DNA of 64,000 nucleotides, taken from contig JANYKN010000144.1 of NCBI GenBank assembly GCA_025361565.1, positions 1 through 64,000 on the forward strand, given 5' to 3'. A program made the position numbers and the translations under genes. Source of the DNA: Bacteroidota bacterium (lineage in GTDB: Bacteria; Bacteroidota; Bacteroidia; Bacteroidales; NBLH01). This document shows positions 28,344-39,888 of this stretch, piece after piece. Each line of letters starts with the position of its first letter. Position 1 is the stretch's first letter. The notes under the pieces are model-generated. The model saw only the letters and a list, made by a program, of their open reading frames with translations. It had not been told where the DNA came from and did not search any database.

Positions 28344-30707
28344 TTAACCAATTTTTATTCCCATAAGCAACACATCATCAACTTGTTCCAAATTTCCCAT
28401 CCAATTATAAAAATTCTTTTCAACAAGCTTTTCTTGTTCTAGCATTGGGTAATCTTTAATGCTTAAAAAGAATTCCTTAAATCGTTTGGCATTGAATTTT
28501 TTTCCTTCTTCGCCACCAAACTGATCGGGATAACCATCTGTAAATGAATAAATCATGTCTCCTTTTTGAAGCTGGAATATATTGGTAGTAAAGTCTTTTT
28601 CGTACGAATAAATAGCGATTGGTTGCCTGTCTGCTTTTATTTCAAATAAAGTAGCTTTCAGCGATTCATCCTGCGGATAGCAAGCTTTAATATTATCATT
28701 TTCAATTTTTGAAACATCAGTAATTAAGCTATTTTCTCTTACAATATAAAGAGGGTTAAATGCACCCGAGAATTGTAACTCATTGGTATCTGTATTGATG
28801 ATAAAAAATGAAATATCCATTCCGTCTTTGGCTTCGCCTTCTTTACCTGATTGGTGTAATGATGTTTTGATTTTTTCTCTTAAATTGTTCAGTATCTCAC
28901 CTGAACTATCAATGCTTCTGGTGGTTACAGTTTCATTTAAAAACATTAATCCCAACATACTCATAAAAGCCCCGGGAACACCATGTCCTGTGCAATCTGC
29001 GATTGTGATAACAACAAAATTTTTAACTTTTTTCATCCAAAAGAAATCGCCGCTTACAATATTTCTGGGCCTCCAGAAAATAAAGTGTTCCGGCAAAATT
29101 TCTTCAAGCATATCTTTAGAAGGTAAAACTGCGTGTTGAATATTCTTTGCATATATGATACTGTCTTCTATTTCTTTTTTTGCGGCTGTAATAAGCTCAT
29201 TTTTTTCCATTACCAAATCTCGTTGAGCTTCAATTTCTTCTTTGGCTTTTTGAATTTCTTTTTTTTGTTCTTCTAGTATTACGTTAGCTTTGGTTTTTTG
29301 TTTATAGCTTCTGTAAAGTATAAACGCAAATAGAAGCATTGCTACAAGTCCACCTAGTAAAATTGACATTCTCAATCGCATAGCTTTTTGCTCCGCTTCT
29401 TGCTTTATCCTTTGGGTTTCAATTTCCTGGTTTTTTTTGTCAACTTGATATTTGGTTTCTTTTTGAATTTGTTTATGTTCTTCATCGCTATAAATGCTAT
29501 CTTTTATCTTAATATACTTTTTAAAGTAGGTATATGCAGCATTAATATTATTTTGATTTTCGTATGCCAGGGCTAATACATGGTATGCTTCTTCAAGACG
29601 AGGTAAAGCTTGAAGTTTATTACCAATTTCAACTGCTTGTTCTGCGAAACTAATTGATTTATTGAATTTTTTTTGATTTAGATATAAATTGGCCATCTCA
29701 GTAAGCAACTCAGCCTTTTGCTCCAAATCTTCAATTTCTTCATTAATTTTAAGTGAGCGTTGGAAATTAATGTCTGCTTCTTTAAATTTTAGCTCTTTCG
29801 AAAATACTTTTCCTATATTTTTTGTACTAATAGCAATTCCTCTAATATCCTTCACATCTTCTCTGATTTCCAAAGACATTTTATAATATTTAAGAGCATC
29901 ATCATATTTATATTGAAAAAAGTATACATCACCCATGTTGTTGTAAATTGTGGCAGTGCCACGCTTATCTCCTAATTTTTTTTTAATTGCAAGTGACTTA
30001 TTATAATACTCCAAGGCCCAATCATATCTTTTACTCTTAGTGTGGATAATTCCAAGGTTGTTGCAACAACTTGAAACGCTTTCCAAATCATTAATTTTTT
30101 CACTAAGTACCAGGGATTTCTGATAATTGTCAACCGCCAAATCAAAATCGCCCAGATAATAGTATACATTGCCTATATTTCTATAAACTTTTGCAAGACC
30201 TGGGTCATCATTAATTTTAAGTTGAATTTCAAGTGCATTTTTATAATATTTTTCAGCCTCTTCATAATTTCCAACAAGCACCTTGACACTTCCCAGATCA
30301 ACGTAATTACTCGCAACAGCTTTTAAGTCATCAACTGATTGATTTATTGCAAGTGATTTTTCGAAATTGGCAGTGGCTTTTTCATAGTCACCGAGGGCTT
30401 TATAATAATATCCTAAGTTTTTATAGCTTTCCGACATTAGGACATTAACTACTCCTTTTGCTTTTTCATCGTCGGATTTGCTTATTTTAAGGGCTAAATC
30501 AAAGGCTTTAGTTACATAGTAATAGGCAGTATCAGGATTGGATTTGGTATAATTGGCTGATAATTCGTTATATAATCTTATTTTAACTGTGTCTTCTTTT
30601 GCTTTTCTAAGCTGAATCAAAAGAGAATCTGCTTTTGGGTCGGCCTTTAGAAATGAAGCCCCAAAAATGAATATAACTAAAATGGTAAGTATGCTTTTAA
30701 ACCTCAT
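28344..30707 (-). CDS. TPR-repeat membrane protein with PP2C/SpoIIE phosphatase domain
   Basis: 787 residues. A signal peptide (MRFKSILTILVIFIFGASFL) is followed by about eight TPR units (40-400; for example NLGYYYKALGDYEKATANFE and NNMGDVYFFQYKYDDALKYY). Then come a membrane helix (about 447-467), a coiled coil, and a SpoIIE-type PP2C serine/threonine phosphatase domain (540-787). Metal-ligand motifs are GDFFWM, IADCTGHGVPGAFMSM, DGMDISF and FTDGYPDQFGG. It probably senses through the periplasmic TPRs and dephosphorylates a cytoplasmic target, such as a SiaC- or anti-sigma-antagonist-like protein. It is paralogous to the phosphatase domain at 35470-38169. Confidence 0.9.
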   Translation of the reverse strand: MRFKSILTILVIFIFGASFLKADPKADSLLIQLRKAKEDTVKIRLYNELSANYTKSNPDTAYYYVTKAFDLALKISKSDDEKAKGVVNVLMSESYKNLGYYYKALGDYEKATANFEKSLAINQSVDDLKAVASNYVDLGSVKVLVGNYEEAEKYYKNALEIQLKINDDPGLAKVYRNIGNVYYYLGDFDLAVDNYQKSLVLSEKINDLESVSSCCNNLGIIHTKSKRYDWALEYYNKSLAIKKKLGDKRGTATIYNNMGDVYFFQYKYDDALKYYKMSLEIREDVKDIRGIAISTKNIGKVFSKELKFKEADINFQRSLKINEEIEDLEQKAELLTEMANLYLNQKKFNKSISFAEQAVEIGNKLQALPRLEEAYHVLALAYENQNNINAAYTYFKKYIKIKDSIYSDEEHKQIQKETKYQVDKKNQEIETQRIKQEAEQKAMRLRMSILLGGLVAMLLFAFILYRSYKQKTKANVILEEQKKEIQKAKEEIEAQRDLVMEKNELITAAKKEIEDSIIYAKNIQHAVLPSKDMLEEILPEHFIFWRPRNIVSGDFFWMKKVKNFVVITIADCTGHGVPGAFMSMLGLMFLNETVTTRSIDSSGEILNNLREKIKTSLHQSGKEGEAKDGMDISFFIINTDTNELQFSGAFNPLYIVRENSLITDVSKIENDNIKACYPQDESLKATLFEIKADRQPIAIYSYEKDFTTNIFQLQKGDMIYSFTDGYPDQFGGEEGKKFNAKRFKEFFLSIKDYPMLEQEKLVEKNFYNWMGNLEQVDDVLLMGIKIG

Positions 30708-35469: not shown

Positions 35470-38169
35470 ATGAAATTAAAAACTGGAATTAATATATTCC
35501 TACTGCTTATTTTAGCAATAAATCTGTCTGCAAATCTGAGTGCACAAAGTGCAAGAGAAAAACAGATAGCAAAACTGCTTTATGAGCTACCACTCTATCT
35601 GCGTTGGGAAAACGATGATAATATTGAAATCATTAAAATTGGTGTACTAAAAGGTTCTCCTCAATTCATAGCTGAATTAAAGCGAGTTTCCAAAGGTGGA
35701 TATGATAACATTATTCAGATTGAAGTAATCAATTTTGCTAGTGTTTCTGATATAAAAGAAACCCACTTGCTTTATCTACCTATGGAGCAAAATAGTGAAT
35801 ATGTTAATGTTTTCAGGAAAATTTCAGGTTATAATACTGCATTGGCTACTGAAGAATATACGGTGAAAAAAGAGATTATGATTAATTTCATTAAAGAAGA
35901 GAGTGGATATAGTTTCGAAATTAATGCAGATAACCTTAAAGATGCAAATGTAACCTTTGAAGCTTCAATTGTTCAATTAGGTGGCACAATTATTAGTACC
36001 AAAGCTCTATTTAATGAATCTGAAAAGAGTTTAAAAGAGGAAAAAAAGAAAGTAAGGAACCAACAGGGCCAGATGAAAAAGCAAGAAGCCCAAATTGAAG
36101 AGCAAAAAGCAAGTATCGAAAAACAACAAAAAGAACTTGACAAGCAAAAAGATAAGTTACTAAGTCAGGCTGACGACATTGCAAAACAAGAAGAAAAGCT
36201 AAGGCTTTCGAAATCAGAATTATTAAAATTAGAAAATAATTCCAAAATTACTAAAGCTGAACTCGATAAAAAGACTAAAGATTTGGTTGAAAAAGAAAAA
36301 TCAATTAAAGTTCAGCAAGACAGGATTAATCAACAAATGATACTCTCAAGAAAGCTGGAAAAAGAAATTAATGCAAGACAAGAGAAGATTGATAAGCAAA
36401 AATCAGAAATTTTAGCACAACAGCTGGAAATCACAGTCAAAAATAATATTCTTTTAATTTTCTTTTGTCTTTTAGTGGTTATTCTTGTGTTAACTTTTTT
36501 TATTCTTAGAGGATACAGGATAAAAAAAAGGGATAATAAGTTACTTGCACAGCAAAAAATTGAAATCGAGTCAATCAACAAAGAGCTTGAAAAACTTTCA
36601 ATAGTAGCAAGTGAAACGTCAAGTGCTGTAATTATTTTAGACACAAACGGACGTTTTGAGTGGGTCAATATTGGCTTTACTAAAATGTATGGATATAATC
36701 TTCAACTACTTAATAATGAACTGGCTGATAATATTTATGAAGCAAGCAATCATCCTGAAATTAAGAAATTGATGAATATTTGCCTGAATGATAAGCGTCC
36801 GGTTATTTATGAATCTTACGTTACTGCCCGAACAGGAGAAGAAAAGTGGGCACAAAGTACACTTACACCAATTTTGTCAAATGATGGAGAAGTTACAAAA
36901 TTGGTACTTATTGATTCTGATATTTCAAAAATTAAGGAAGCAGAGAATGAAATTCTTAGGCAAACCCAGAAAATAACCATTCAAGCGGCAGAGCTTGAAA
37001 AGCAAAATGCTGAACTGGAAAAATTGTCTCTTGTTGCAAGTAAAACTGATAATTCGGTAATTATTGCAAATGTTGATGGTGAAATAGAATGGGTCAACGA
37101 TGGTTTTACGAGGTTACTTGGAATGCCATTTTCCGAGTTTTCGGCTGAATATGGCAATAATATGTTTAAATCAAGTTTAAATCCGCGTTTAAGAGAGCAA
37201 TTACAATCGGCTATTAAAGAAAAAAAATCAATAATCTATTCAGCCAAAGCAAGCACAAAAGATGGTCGTATGATTTGGATTCAAACCACTATGACACCTA
37301 TTTTTAATGGCGACGGCGAACTTCGGAAATACATTGCAATTGATGCAGATATTACTAAAATAAAAGTTGCCGAAGAAGAAATTTCGAGGCAGAAACAAAA
37401 AATTACAGATAGTATTATTTATGCATGTAAAATTCAAGAAGCAGTATTACCACCAGATGAATATCTAATTAAACTATTTCCAGAAAACTTTATCTTGTTT
37501 AAACCAAAAGACATTGTTAGTGGTGATTTCTATTGGGCTTCACATCGAGGAGATAAGGTAATGATTGCAGCTGCCGATTGCACTGGTCATGGTGTGCCTG
37601 GAGGATTTATGAGCATGTTGGGTATGACTTTTTTAAATGATATAGCAGGTCGGCTTGATGAAAATGAACTAAATGCCGGTCTTATGCTCACCTATTTAAG
37701 AGAAAGTGTGAAAATGTCATTGCGTCAAACCGGAAAGGAAGGAGAGGCCAAGGATGGGATGGATGTTGCATTGTGTATTTTTGATAAAAAAACGATGGAG
37801 TTACAGTTTGCCGGAGCAAATAATCCACTTTTGATTGTAAGGGAAGACGGTGATGAGTTGGAACTGATTAACGTAAAACCTGATGAAATGCCAATAGGTA
37901 TTTATTATAATGAAAAAGAGACCTTTACAAATCATAAGATTCAATTAAAGCATGGTGACTTATGTTATATTTTTTCAGATGGATATGCAGATCAATTTGG
38001 AGGAAAAGGTGGTAGGAAATTTATGGTAAAGCGATTCAAAAATATGCTGGCCATGCACTCAGATAAACCTATGTCTGAGCAAAAAAGGATAATCGATAAA
38101 GCTTTTAATAGTTGGAAAGGCAATAACAGGCAAATTGACGATGTTTTGGTTATAGGCTTTAAAGTTTAA
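35470..38169 (+). CDS. YfiR-like / coiled-coil / two-PAS / SpoIIE phosphatase membrane sensor
   Basis: 899 residues. A signal peptide (1-26) leads to a YfiR-like (DUF4154) periplasmic domain (about 28-170), with INFIKEESGYSFEINADN matching the family's final strand region. A long Gln/Lys/Glu-rich coiled coil (175-322) precedes a membrane helix (325-347). Two related PAS domains follow (about 377-485 and 520-625; both have a D/NGxxEWVNxGFT core). The PP2C/SpoIIE phosphatase (642-899) has GDFYWAS, AAADCTGHGVPGGFMSM, DGMDVAL and FSDGYADQFGG. It resembles SiaA in being a membrane PP2C, and it is convergent with siaC and a double siaB, its likely partners (inference). Confidence 0.9.
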   Translation: MKLKTGINIFLLLILAINLSANLSAQSAREKQIAKLLYELPLYLRWENDDNIEIIKIGVLKGSPQFIAELKRVSKGGYDNIIQIEVINFASVSDIKETHLLYLPMEQNSEYVNVFRKISGYNTALATEEYTVKKEIMINFIKEESGYSFEINADNLKDANVTFEASIVQLGGTIISTKALFNESEKSLKEEKKKVRNQQGQMKKQEAQIEEQKASIEKQQKELDKQKDKLLSQADDIAKQEEKLRLSKSELLKLENNSKITKAELDKKTKDLVEKEKSIKVQQDRINQQMILSRKLEKEINARQEKIDKQKSEILAQQLEITVKNNILLIFFCLLVVILVLTFFILRGYRIKKRDNKLLAQQKIEIESINKELEKLSIVASETSSAVIILDTNGRFEWVNIGFTKMYGYNLQLLNNELADNIYEASNHPEIKKLMNICLNDKRPVIYESYVTARTGEEKWAQSTLTPILSNDGEVTKLVLIDSDISKIKEAENEILRQTQKITIQAAELEKQNAELEKLSLVASKTDNSVIIANVDGEIEWVNDGFTRLLGMPFSEFSAEYGNNMFKSSLNPRLREQLQSAIKEKKSIIYSAKASTKDGRMIWIQTTMTPIFNGDGELRKYIAIDADITKIKVAEEEISRQKQKITDSIIYACKIQEAVLPPDEYLIKLFPENFILFKPKDIVSGDFYWASHRGDKVMIAAADCTGHGVPGGFMSMLGMTFLNDIAGRLDENELNAGLMLTYLRESVKMSLRQTGKEGEAKDGMDVALCIFDKKTMELQFAGANNPLLIVREDGDELELINVKPDEMPIGIYYNEKETFTNHKIQLKHGDLCYIFSDGYADQFGGKGGRKFMVKRFKNMLAMHSDKPMSEQKRIIDKAFNSWKGNNRQIDDVLVIGFKV

Positions 38170-38245
38170 TGCAAAATATTAGTATTATATTTAAAATGTG
38201 TTTATAAACCATTTATTTGATTATTATCTTTGGATATCTCAAAAA

Positions 38246-38271
38246 AAAAAACTGCCAGAAAGCAGTTTTTT
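38246..38271. terminator. Bidirectional terminator between phosphatase gene and siaC
   Basis: AAAAAACTGC (38246-38255) pairs with GCAGTTTTTT (38262-38271) around a 6-base loop. A and T runs on the two sides allow termination of both converging genes. Confidence 0.75.
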
Positions 38272-38283
38272 ATATTTATCTGA

Positions 38284-38706
38284 TTAAAAAAAGTTTTCAT
38301 CGTCATCGTCCTGATCTTCATCTAAGATACTTTTCTCGTATTCGACCATTTCGAATTTAACATTTACCAAATTTGTAAACCTTATTCCCAGGGCATGCAT
38401 GTCTTCATCTATTTTATCATAATGCCAGCGAATAACCACATTGCTCTTTTGATTAATCTTATCGATTAGAAATATCAATTCGAAAATTTGTTTTGATGAA
38501 GCTGTATTCAGATATTCAATATTGAAATCAAAAACAGTCGTTGGATTGGCTTCTTCACGATATTTTTTAAGCCATGCAAGAACAGGAGCATAAAACTCAA
38601 TAGCGTTTTCGGGCAATGAAACATTTGATATTTTGAACACATTATTAAGTGGATCAAAAATAATTTCCGGTGTATCTTCTGTTGCCTTTATAATTAATGG
38701 TTTCAT
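38284..38706 (-). CDS. siaC: SiaC-family (DUF1987) regulatory phosphoprotein
   Basis: 140 residues. The family core is visible: IIFDPLNNVFKISNVSLPEN, then VFDFNIEYLNTASSKQIFEL. By count, the Thr in YLNTASSK is residue 68, the same number as the phosphorylated Thr of Pseudomonas aeruginosa SiaC. The C-terminal tail is highly acidic (DEDQDDDDENFF). In Pseudomonas, SiaC is phosphorylated by SiaB, dephosphorylated by SiaA, and in its dephosphorylated form activates the diguanylate cyclase SiaD. Here no cyclase is present, so the output must differ or lie elsewhere. It lies 24 bases after the double siaB gene. Confidence 0.88.
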   Translation of the reverse strand: MKPLIIKATEDTPEIIFDPLNNVFKISNVSLPENAIEFYAPVLAWLKKYREEANPTTVFDFNIEYLNTASSKQIFELIFLIDKINQKSNVVIRWHYDKIDEDMHALGIRFTNLVNVKFEMVEYEKSILDEDQDDDDENFF

Positions 38707-38730
38707 TCGAAAATATAGTTTACGATTAAA

Positions 38731-39888
38731 TTATTTCAGTTTAATTGAGGTTTGTAGTGTGAAAAAAGAATAATCATCATTGACTTTTGTGAAATCAAAT
38801 GCAATTTTACGATGGCTTTTTAAGCGAATATCAATAAATCCTAAACCTGTTTTTTGAGGATCCACAGCTGATTGATCAAGAAGAATTTTATTGAAATAGT
38901 CATTTAATTCATCTTCATTTAATTCGTTAATAAATTCAAGTCGTTCTTTAAAAACATCAACTTTTGAACTTTCTACGTAATTTCCTGATGTTAAAATAAA
39001 ATCATCTTCAGTTTGGCTCAGGTAAAAAATACCTGAATTACCGTCTGGATAGTCCTCAATATTTTCGCCATGTTTACTTATGTTTTGCAACATTTCAACC
39101 ATAATATAATAAACTTTTTTTGCAGGACTGCTCATGCTCATTTGCCCTTTGATAATTGATAAAAGGCTTAGTATGTTATTTTGATTAAAATTTCCGTTAA
39201 AATTGAGTAAAATATCCTTTTTTGATAATAAATGATTTAAACTCTTAATGCTTTTAATTGACTCGTTATCAGTTATATCATGTTCTTCTATCCCTAATTC
39301 ACCTCTTGATGGTATTTCTGTTTGAAGGTAAAAGTACGACCAATATAAATCAACATATTCAAAATCGAACGACAATTTATTACCAGATCGCCTTGCCATT
39401 TCAATTAGACCCAAGCCTGCACCTCCTTTGTCTGATAATTCACCAGTACTTAATATTTCCCGATGCAAATTTTTAAGTTCTTCGCGGTCAAGGCTATTAA
39501 CACGCTCTAAACGTTGTTTTAATGAGTCTACTTTACTATTTACAATTAAATTTCCAGTAGTAATCAGGTAACGGTTACCTTTCTTTTGAATGGCAAAAAT
39601 ACCTGAAAAATCTCCGGTATCTCCGGTATCACCAGAACTACCTGACAAATCATCCTGATGCCGGGTTACATTCTGTAATCCTTCAACCATTATGAAGTAA
39701 ATTCGATTTTGAAGGGATGATTTATCAACTAATTTTTGAAGGTTGGTTTCCGCCAATGAAAGTATTTTCCGCGTGAGGGTTTGGGTAAAATTTCCACGGT
39801 ATATATATTCAAAATCCCCATTCTCAACTCTTTGAAAAAGATCGTAGGTGATTTTTAACGGTTTATTTATGTTTTTTCTTCTTATCAT
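38731..39888 (-). CDS. siaB: SiaB-family protein kinase with two tandem kinase-like domains
   Basis: 385 residues, about twice the length of P. aeruginosa SiaB. Domain 1 (1-195) has the ATP-binding N-box-like helix FIMVEGLQNVTRHQ and a glycine loop DKGGAGLGLIEMARRSGNK. Domain 2 (about 215-385) repeats them as YIMVEMLQNISKHGE and DPQKTGLGFIDIRLKSHRK. Each domain also has the SGIFxI/L strand and a TGNxxxxSKVD segment. Both copies keep the key Asn, so both may bind ATP, though one may be regulatory. Domain 1 carries an odd Ser/Gly/Asp/Thr insert (SGSSGDTGDTGDF) not matched in domain 2. It is encoded directly upstream of siaC. Confidence 0.87.
   Translation of the reverse strand: MIRRKNINKPLKITYDLFQRVENGDFEYIYRGNFTQTLTRKILSLAETNLQKLVDKSSLQNRIYFIMVEGLQNVTRHQDDLSGSSGDTGDTGDFSGIFAIQKKGNRYLITTGNLIVNSKVDSLKQRLERVNSLDREELKNLHREILSTGELSDKGGAGLGLIEMARRSGNKLSFDFEYVDLYWSYFYLQTEIPSRGELGIEEHDITDNESIKSIKSLNHLLSKKDILLNFNGNFNQNNILSLLSIIKGQMSMSSPAKKVYYIMVEMLQNISKHGENIEDYPDGNSGIFYLSQTEDDFILTSGNYVESSKVDVFKERLEFINELNEDELNDYFNKILLDQSAVDPQKTGLGFIDIRLKSHRKIAFDFTKVNDDYSFFTLQTSIKLK

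Follow-up and report, generated by a model that had tools for sequence, protein, structure and literature searches.

A SiaABC-type module with a double SiaB kinase in a Bacteroidales genome devoid of detectable c-di-GMP enzymes

Our analysis concerns a three-gene module in a 64,000-nucleotide stretch of DNA (hereafter the window: contig JANYKN010000144.1, positions 1 to 64,000, assembly GCA_025361565.1) from a member of the Bacteroidales. It encodes a membrane-bound phosphatase, a SiaC protein and a kinase in which two SiaB domains follow each other in one chain. We consider it likely that these proteins form a SiaABC-type partner switch that relies on an intramolecular heterodimeric kinase and whose output is something other than cyclic di-GMP (c-di-GMP). 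The domains, motifs, phosphosite and synteny of the module and the lack of detectable cyclases can be read directly from the sequence and a structure model. The doubled, asymmetric kinase and an output unrelated to c-di-GMP would be what is new here, built upon the known SiaB and SiaC families.

The double kinase and its SiaC partner

The three open reading frames on which an earlier note on this DNA had built its proposal were recovered with unchanged boundaries, and the module comprises the following features.

35470-38169, plus strand: SiaA-like sensor phosphatase, 899 residues (Pfam/NCBIfam profiles, motifs, predicted topology)
38246-38271, no strand: bidirectional hairpin resembling an intrinsic terminator, with T runs on both sides, between the convergent genes
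38284-38706, minus strand: SiaC (PF09345/DUF1987), 140 residues (PF09345 profile; Thr68 in YLNTASSK)
38731-39888, minus strand: double SiaB kinase, 385 residues (PF19788, NF038262, structure model)
39313-39888, minus strand: N half of the kinase, about residues 1-192 (N-box E69/N73, G1 N113, lid GGAGLG at 155-160)
38734-39267, minus strand: C half of the kinase, about residues 208-385 (SiaB fold, N-box E265/N269, G1 N303, altered lid KTGLG)

Both PF19788 (DUF6272; E 6e-68, 227.1 bits against a cut-off of 26.6) and the SiaB family kinase profile NF038262 (250.7 bits, cut-off 85) match the kinase in two stretches, and its motifs come in pairs (N half/C half: EGLQN-69/EMLQN-265, TTGN-110/TSGN-300, GGAGLG-155/KTGLG-346). 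The N half possesses the full set of GHKL motifs; the C half retains the Glu, the Asn, the G1 motif and the GLG but is devoid of the first lid glycines. The previous description of two SiaB domains in one chain is thereby confirmed. In a Foldseek search with the structure model of the double SiaB (predicted local distance difference test, pLDDT, 83.6; predicted template modelling score, pTM, 0.81), crystal SiaB was the top match (6kko_A, E 3.6e-8). The C half of the model (residues 210-382) superposes on 6kko_A with a Z score of 18.7 and a root-mean-square deviation of 2.4 over 164 residues. For the N half, UsfX/SpoIIAB gave Z scores of 11.8-12.9, and the kinase fold as such matches SpoIIAB and UsfX at 11.5-12.9. 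Profiles, fold and the retained N-box Glu and Asn collectively identify the second half as a genuine SiaB domain; a mismatch here was one of the outcomes that the earlier note had named as refuting it.

We found 91 double SiaBs, all in Bacteroidota-type genomes, compared their motif columns with those of single SiaBs and placed their halves in a tree. All N halves (91/91) fell into one clade with a support of 0.905, and 89 of the 91 C halves into another with a support of 0.989. Since the halves each cluster in this manner, the duplication behind the double SiaBs most likely occurred once, and the asymmetry between the halves would be old. The N-box Glu and Asn are kept in 98-100% of the N halves and of the C halves alike, and the G1 Asn is conserved in 100%. 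By contrast, the first two lid glycines are present in 98-100% of the N halves and in 92-93% of the single SiaBs but in no more than 18% of the C halves, and the position of Arg166 has turned mostly hydrophobic in the C halves. The suggestion that an active domain might be paired with a regulatory one thereby gains support, as the canonical GGAGLG lid in the N halves and the missing first glycines in the C halves are family-wide traits.

The siaC gene lies on the same minus strand as the double-siaB gene, and the two are probably co-transcribed because a gap of only 24 base pairs separates them. PF09345 covers the SiaC protein with its whole model (E 3e-33; 114.4 bits against a cut-off of 24.5), and the Thr of the NTASS motif is residue 68, exactly the phosphoacceptor position, just as had been proposed from the letters of the sequence. 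The SiaC partners of the double kinase likewise form one clade (71/74).

The predicted phosphatase begins with a signal-peptide-like segment, followed by a YfiR/HmsC-like DUF4154 domain (residues 34-171 in the profile search), a coiled coil, a single strong transmembrane segment at about 319-352, two PAS domains and a SpoIIE-type PP2C domain (residues 694-898). From this predicted topology, the YfiR domain and the coiled coil would be located in the periplasm. The usual PP2C metal-site motifs are kept (GDF-685, DCTGHG-703, DG-762, SDG-836, DD-890), and the SiaA profile NF038263 scores 173.7 bits over the PP2C part, with an equivalog cut-off of 700. Profiles, motifs, the membrane segment and the intervening hairpin thus all agree with the initial description of this gene as a convergent YfiR-PAS-PAS-SpoIIE phosphatase, which runs toward the SiaBB-SiaC pair across 38246-38271. 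The arrangement recurs: a SpoIIE phosphatase is the adjoining gene, convergent every time, in 15 of the 91 double-SiaB loci, against a chance of about 4e-16. In L078, the closest homologous locus, a YfiR-PAS-PAS-SpoIIE gene occupies the same place as in the window. The sensor part of these convergent phosphatases differs: the window shares its YfiR domain with L078 and L088, and other loci have TPR or two-component-propeller domains there; judged by their sequences, the modules share a constant kinase-substrate core and vary in their sensor. A further SpoIIE phosphatase, equipped with TPR repeats, is encoded at 28344-30707, 5 kb from the module, and is another possible SiaC phosphatase.

The module is one of many that run in parallel in this genome. 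The assembly (6.76 Mb, 199 contigs, 98% complete, 2.6% contamination) encodes 23 SiaC proteins, nine double SiaBs, eight single SiaBs and 41 SpoIIE matches. SiaC is rare in the phylum (14 of 247 sampled genomes including the host, the other carriers having 1-3 copies) and bimodal within the order, where 38 of 79 genomes carry it, many of them with 10-21 copies; the 23 copies of the host are therefore not an artefact of its assembly. Some SiaC genes have no adjoining SiaB (L064 7220-9683, L066 8455-10299, L067 9065-9859), occasionally as tandem pairs or triplets, and one directly follows a SpoIIE phosphatase gene. A scan of named genomes yielded 80 double-SiaB loci, all by record title from Bacteroidota-type metagenome-assembled genomes (MAGs), a few of which are labelled Chlorobi; the scan retained only the 80 top-scoring matches to its double-SiaB query, from which neither the ratio of double to single SiaBs nor absence elsewhere can be read. 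Single-chain SiaB-SiaB-SiaC fusions, which by their domain composition tie the kinase to its substrate, number 16, two in the host genome and 14 among these 80 loci. A survey of double-SiaB neighborhoods, as the earlier note had advised, hence disclosed a lineage-wide double kinase, SiaC fusions and the candidate outputs discussed below.

A mechanistic model and its competitors

These data lend support to a model in which an envelope signal would be sensed by the periplasmic YfiR-like domain and relayed through the PAS pair, which would set how active the SpoIIE phosphatase is in the cytoplasm. SiaC would receive a phosphate at Thr68 from the double SiaB and lose it again to the phosphatase. 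Within the kinase, ATP would find its canonical site in the N half. The C half would serve as a built-in dimer partner and probably as a modified or regulatory site because the change in its ATP lid is fixed while the catalytic Glu and the Mg-binding Asn are kept. Unphosphorylated SiaC would then bind its target through the alpha2/alpha3 face, as SiaC does with SiaD in Pseudomonas, the target here not being a GGDEF enzyme. We infer the phosphotransfer, the dimer geometry, the sensed signal and the effector binding in this scheme. The possible dimerization within one chain would fit the dimer formed by SiaB from P. aeruginosa.

Might the double kinase instead be a plain tandem repeat with two equivalent active sites and no functional asymmetry? 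Nearly all copies do, after all, retain the N-box E, Q and N in both halves, along with the GLG motif and the G1 Asn. We nevertheless regard this reading as unlikely, since the lid glycine pair is near-universal in N halves and common in single SiaBs but scarce at either position in C halves, with the Arg at 166 mostly replaced by hydrophobic residues there, and since this change is old and fixed. In one paralogue, a double SiaB with an adjoining convergent SiaC (L069 9215-10384), the C half lacks even the GLG (KPDLSII). As to the phosphatase, it may be a chance neighbor, with another SpoIIE protein of the genome serving this SiaC; the 41 SpoIIE matches and the separate transcription of the phosphatase and kinase genes around the terminator would allow for this. 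The recurrent convergent arrangement and the equally placed homologue in L078 make such a coincidence rather improbable.

Two further alternatives concern the output. Given that SiaD of P. aeruginosa is switched on by SiaC (PMC8457831), c-di-GMP might still be the output here through a diverged cyclase missed by the profile or one encoded in the 2% that the assembly lacks; moreover, two of 38 SiaC-carrying relatives have a GGDEF match. However, there is no GGDEF gene near the module in the window, as the earlier note had remarked, and this holds for the entire host genome, in which searches for GGDEF, EAL and PilZ, all positive in control genomes, returned zero matches each. The diguanylate cyclase elsewhere in the genome that would have spoken against a different output was thus sought, and none is detectable. 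As the host and 36 of the 38 SiaC-carrying relatives are without GGDEF, c-di-GMP is very unlikely to be the output, and the escape routes just named appear remote. The SiaC protein itself points in the same direction: among the residues through which SiaC of P. aeruginosa contacts SiaD (Y65, N67, T68, S69, I71, M75, D79, R103, L107 and E110 are included; PMC8457831), Y65, N67, T68 and L107 are kept in the window protein, but D79F, R103D and E110R are altered. A classical output, in which the kinase sequesters a sigma or anti-sigma factor in the manner of RsbW/SpoIIAB and SiaC is merely a kinase antagonist, draws on the shared SpoIIAB/RsbW/UsfX fold and on a primary-type sigma-70 gene that in 13 loci is no more than four genes away from SiaB/SiaC, in five of them directly upstream of the double SiaB on the same strand (L129 4798-5658; also L131, L140, L153 and L119). 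Yet the gene order of these loci (rpoD, HtrA-like, DapF) looks as if it had been inherited once and not as if the association had arisen anew several times, the window locus has no sigma gene, a primary sigma factor would be an odd target, and in P. aeruginosa the output SiaD is bound by SiaC, not by SiaB (PMC7278518). We therefore hold a sigma-factor output to be distinctly doubtful.

Candidate outputs in sister modules

At the window locus, we sought a sigma factor, a cyclase or another obvious effector and found none. The flanking genes, named by eye from their sequences, encode an NAD(P)HX epimerase/dehydratase-like protein, an outer-membrane protein, a YggS-like protein and a tRNA thiouridylase-like protein. 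The closest SiaC clade (L079-L090) has no common neighbor either, its neighbors varying among FtsA/FtsZ, CHAT and histidine kinases. In three rumen Bacteroidales loci (L082, L086, L089), a double-SiaB/SiaC pair is found directly downstream of ftsA-ftsZ. The target of the window SiaC would accordingly be encoded away from the locus. The sister modules are more telling, and through them the surmise that the output may be new has gained support; representative loci are listed here.

L057 6546-9623 and L058 5832-8942: protein with TerB, ABC ATPase and ABC2_membrane domains beside SiaB-SiaC
L061 945-2963: SiaB-SiaB-SiaC fusion
L061 3021-4553: pentapeptide/TIGYGD channel-like protein following the fusion; the pair recurs in other MAGs

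A TerB-ABC_tran-ABC2_membrane protein of about 1030 residues is encoded near SiaB/SiaC in 45 loci and is the immediate neighbor in 41, with 24 on the same strand and 17 in convergent orientation. These loci come almost entirely from a survey of 80 SiaC loci in relatives, about half of which have this neighbor; the survey took the highest-scoring SiaC proteins and is thus biased toward canonical SiaC. A frequent gene order is SpoIIE phosphatase, SiaB, SiaC, TerB-ABC, lipoprotein-like protein and small protein. Of the 38 SiaC-bearing genomes among the 79, 37 encode TerB-ABC, as against none of the 41 that lack SiaC (Fisher 8e-22, without correction for kinship). In ABC-linked SiaC proteins, conservation of the SiaD-binding face exceeds that of random columns (0.86 vs 0.64; 0.96 vs 0.71), which as a sign of effector binding is suggestive only. 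In these sister modules, the target would probably be the TerB-ABC transporter protein. For the SiaBB-SiaC fusions, it may perhaps be a pentapeptide/K+-channel-like protein: directly downstream of eight of the 16 fusions, on the same strand, lies a gene for a pentapeptide-repeat and Ion_trans_2 protein, with the K+-channel filter motif TIGYGD in all six complete copies. This gene is present in 20 of the 79 genomes, all of which carry SiaC, and stands alone in several. The model of a fused SiaBB-SiaC protein has a pLDDT of 88 and a pTM of 0.76.

Several observations weigh against this interpretation. The window locus has no adjoining transporter or channel gene, and the five TerB-ABC genes of the host are all located away from it. 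The phyletic match between TerB-ABC and SiaC can partly mirror shared ancestry. Conservation of the SiaD-binding face is average in double-SiaB-linked SiaC proteins and below average in the fusions; one common effector for the double-SiaB-linked SiaC proteins is therefore not indicated, and the tested face may also contact SiaB or SiaA. Finally, the pseudo-dimer geometry of the double kinase is a putative one. With these points in mind, we put forward only tentatively, as a possibility somewhat short of even, the specific version of our model in which, throughout this Bacteroidota lineage, dephosphorylated SiaC directly binds and gates membrane machines (the TerB-ABC protein, the channel-like protein and, for the window SiaC, a third target), with no second messenger involved, and the double SiaB is a fusion heterodimer of one catalytic and one modified half.

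Relation to known partner switches and significance

With the SiaABCD system of P. aeruginosa (PMC7647112; PMC7278518; PMC8457831), the module shares the SpoIIE/PP2C membrane phosphatase, the GHKL kinase of the SiaB family and a SiaC with Thr68. It differs in that the kinase, a dimer in the crystal of P. aeruginosa SiaB, here consists of two unlike halves within a single chain, that the phosphatase gene is convergent rather than part of an operon and encodes a YfiR sensor, and that there is neither SiaD nor any detectable GGDEF protein in the host. The NCBIfam equivalog cut-offs (NF038263, NF038264, NF038265) are not reached by SiaA (173.7/700 bits), SiaB (98.6/225) or SiaC (69/150), and SiaD is absent, so that filing the module as 'SiaABCD' would be wrong, even though its mode of action is very probably that of SiaABC. 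The SpoIIAB-SpoIIAA and RsbW-RsbV pairs (PDB 1th8, 6m36, 8ih8) are alike in kinase fold, in the N-box Glu and Asn and, as predicted here, in that a small STAS-like partner is phosphorylated on Ser/Thr and a PP2C enzyme reverses this; the window differs from them by a SiaC-family instead of a STAS-family sequence, by the absence of a sigma gene at the locus and by its double kinase. Profile similarity to the slr1658-slr1659 superfamily (NCBIfam NF047703, NF047705) is distant for the double SiaB (slr1658, E 1e-11) and weak for SiaC (slr1659, E 0.045), but the window proteins score far below the cut-offs and the profile shows no doubling.

The only studied task of SiaC (DUF1987) proteins known to us, also from the literature that we searched, is to switch on a diguanylate cyclase; that search turned up nothing about Sia systems of Bacteroidota, nor about TerB-ABC proteins together with SiaC. 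It has been suggested that SiaC modulates adjacent proteins, and a wider role was raised as a question (PMC8457831). Genomes with up to 23 SiaC proteins, no detectable cyclase and conserved neighbors that name candidate targets bear upon this issue, and they would show that the partner switch has been reused as a general controller of proteins. With one of its halves altered, the double kinase would at the same time represent a natural heterodimer, the two sites of which, unlike those of a homodimeric kinase, can be mutated separately.

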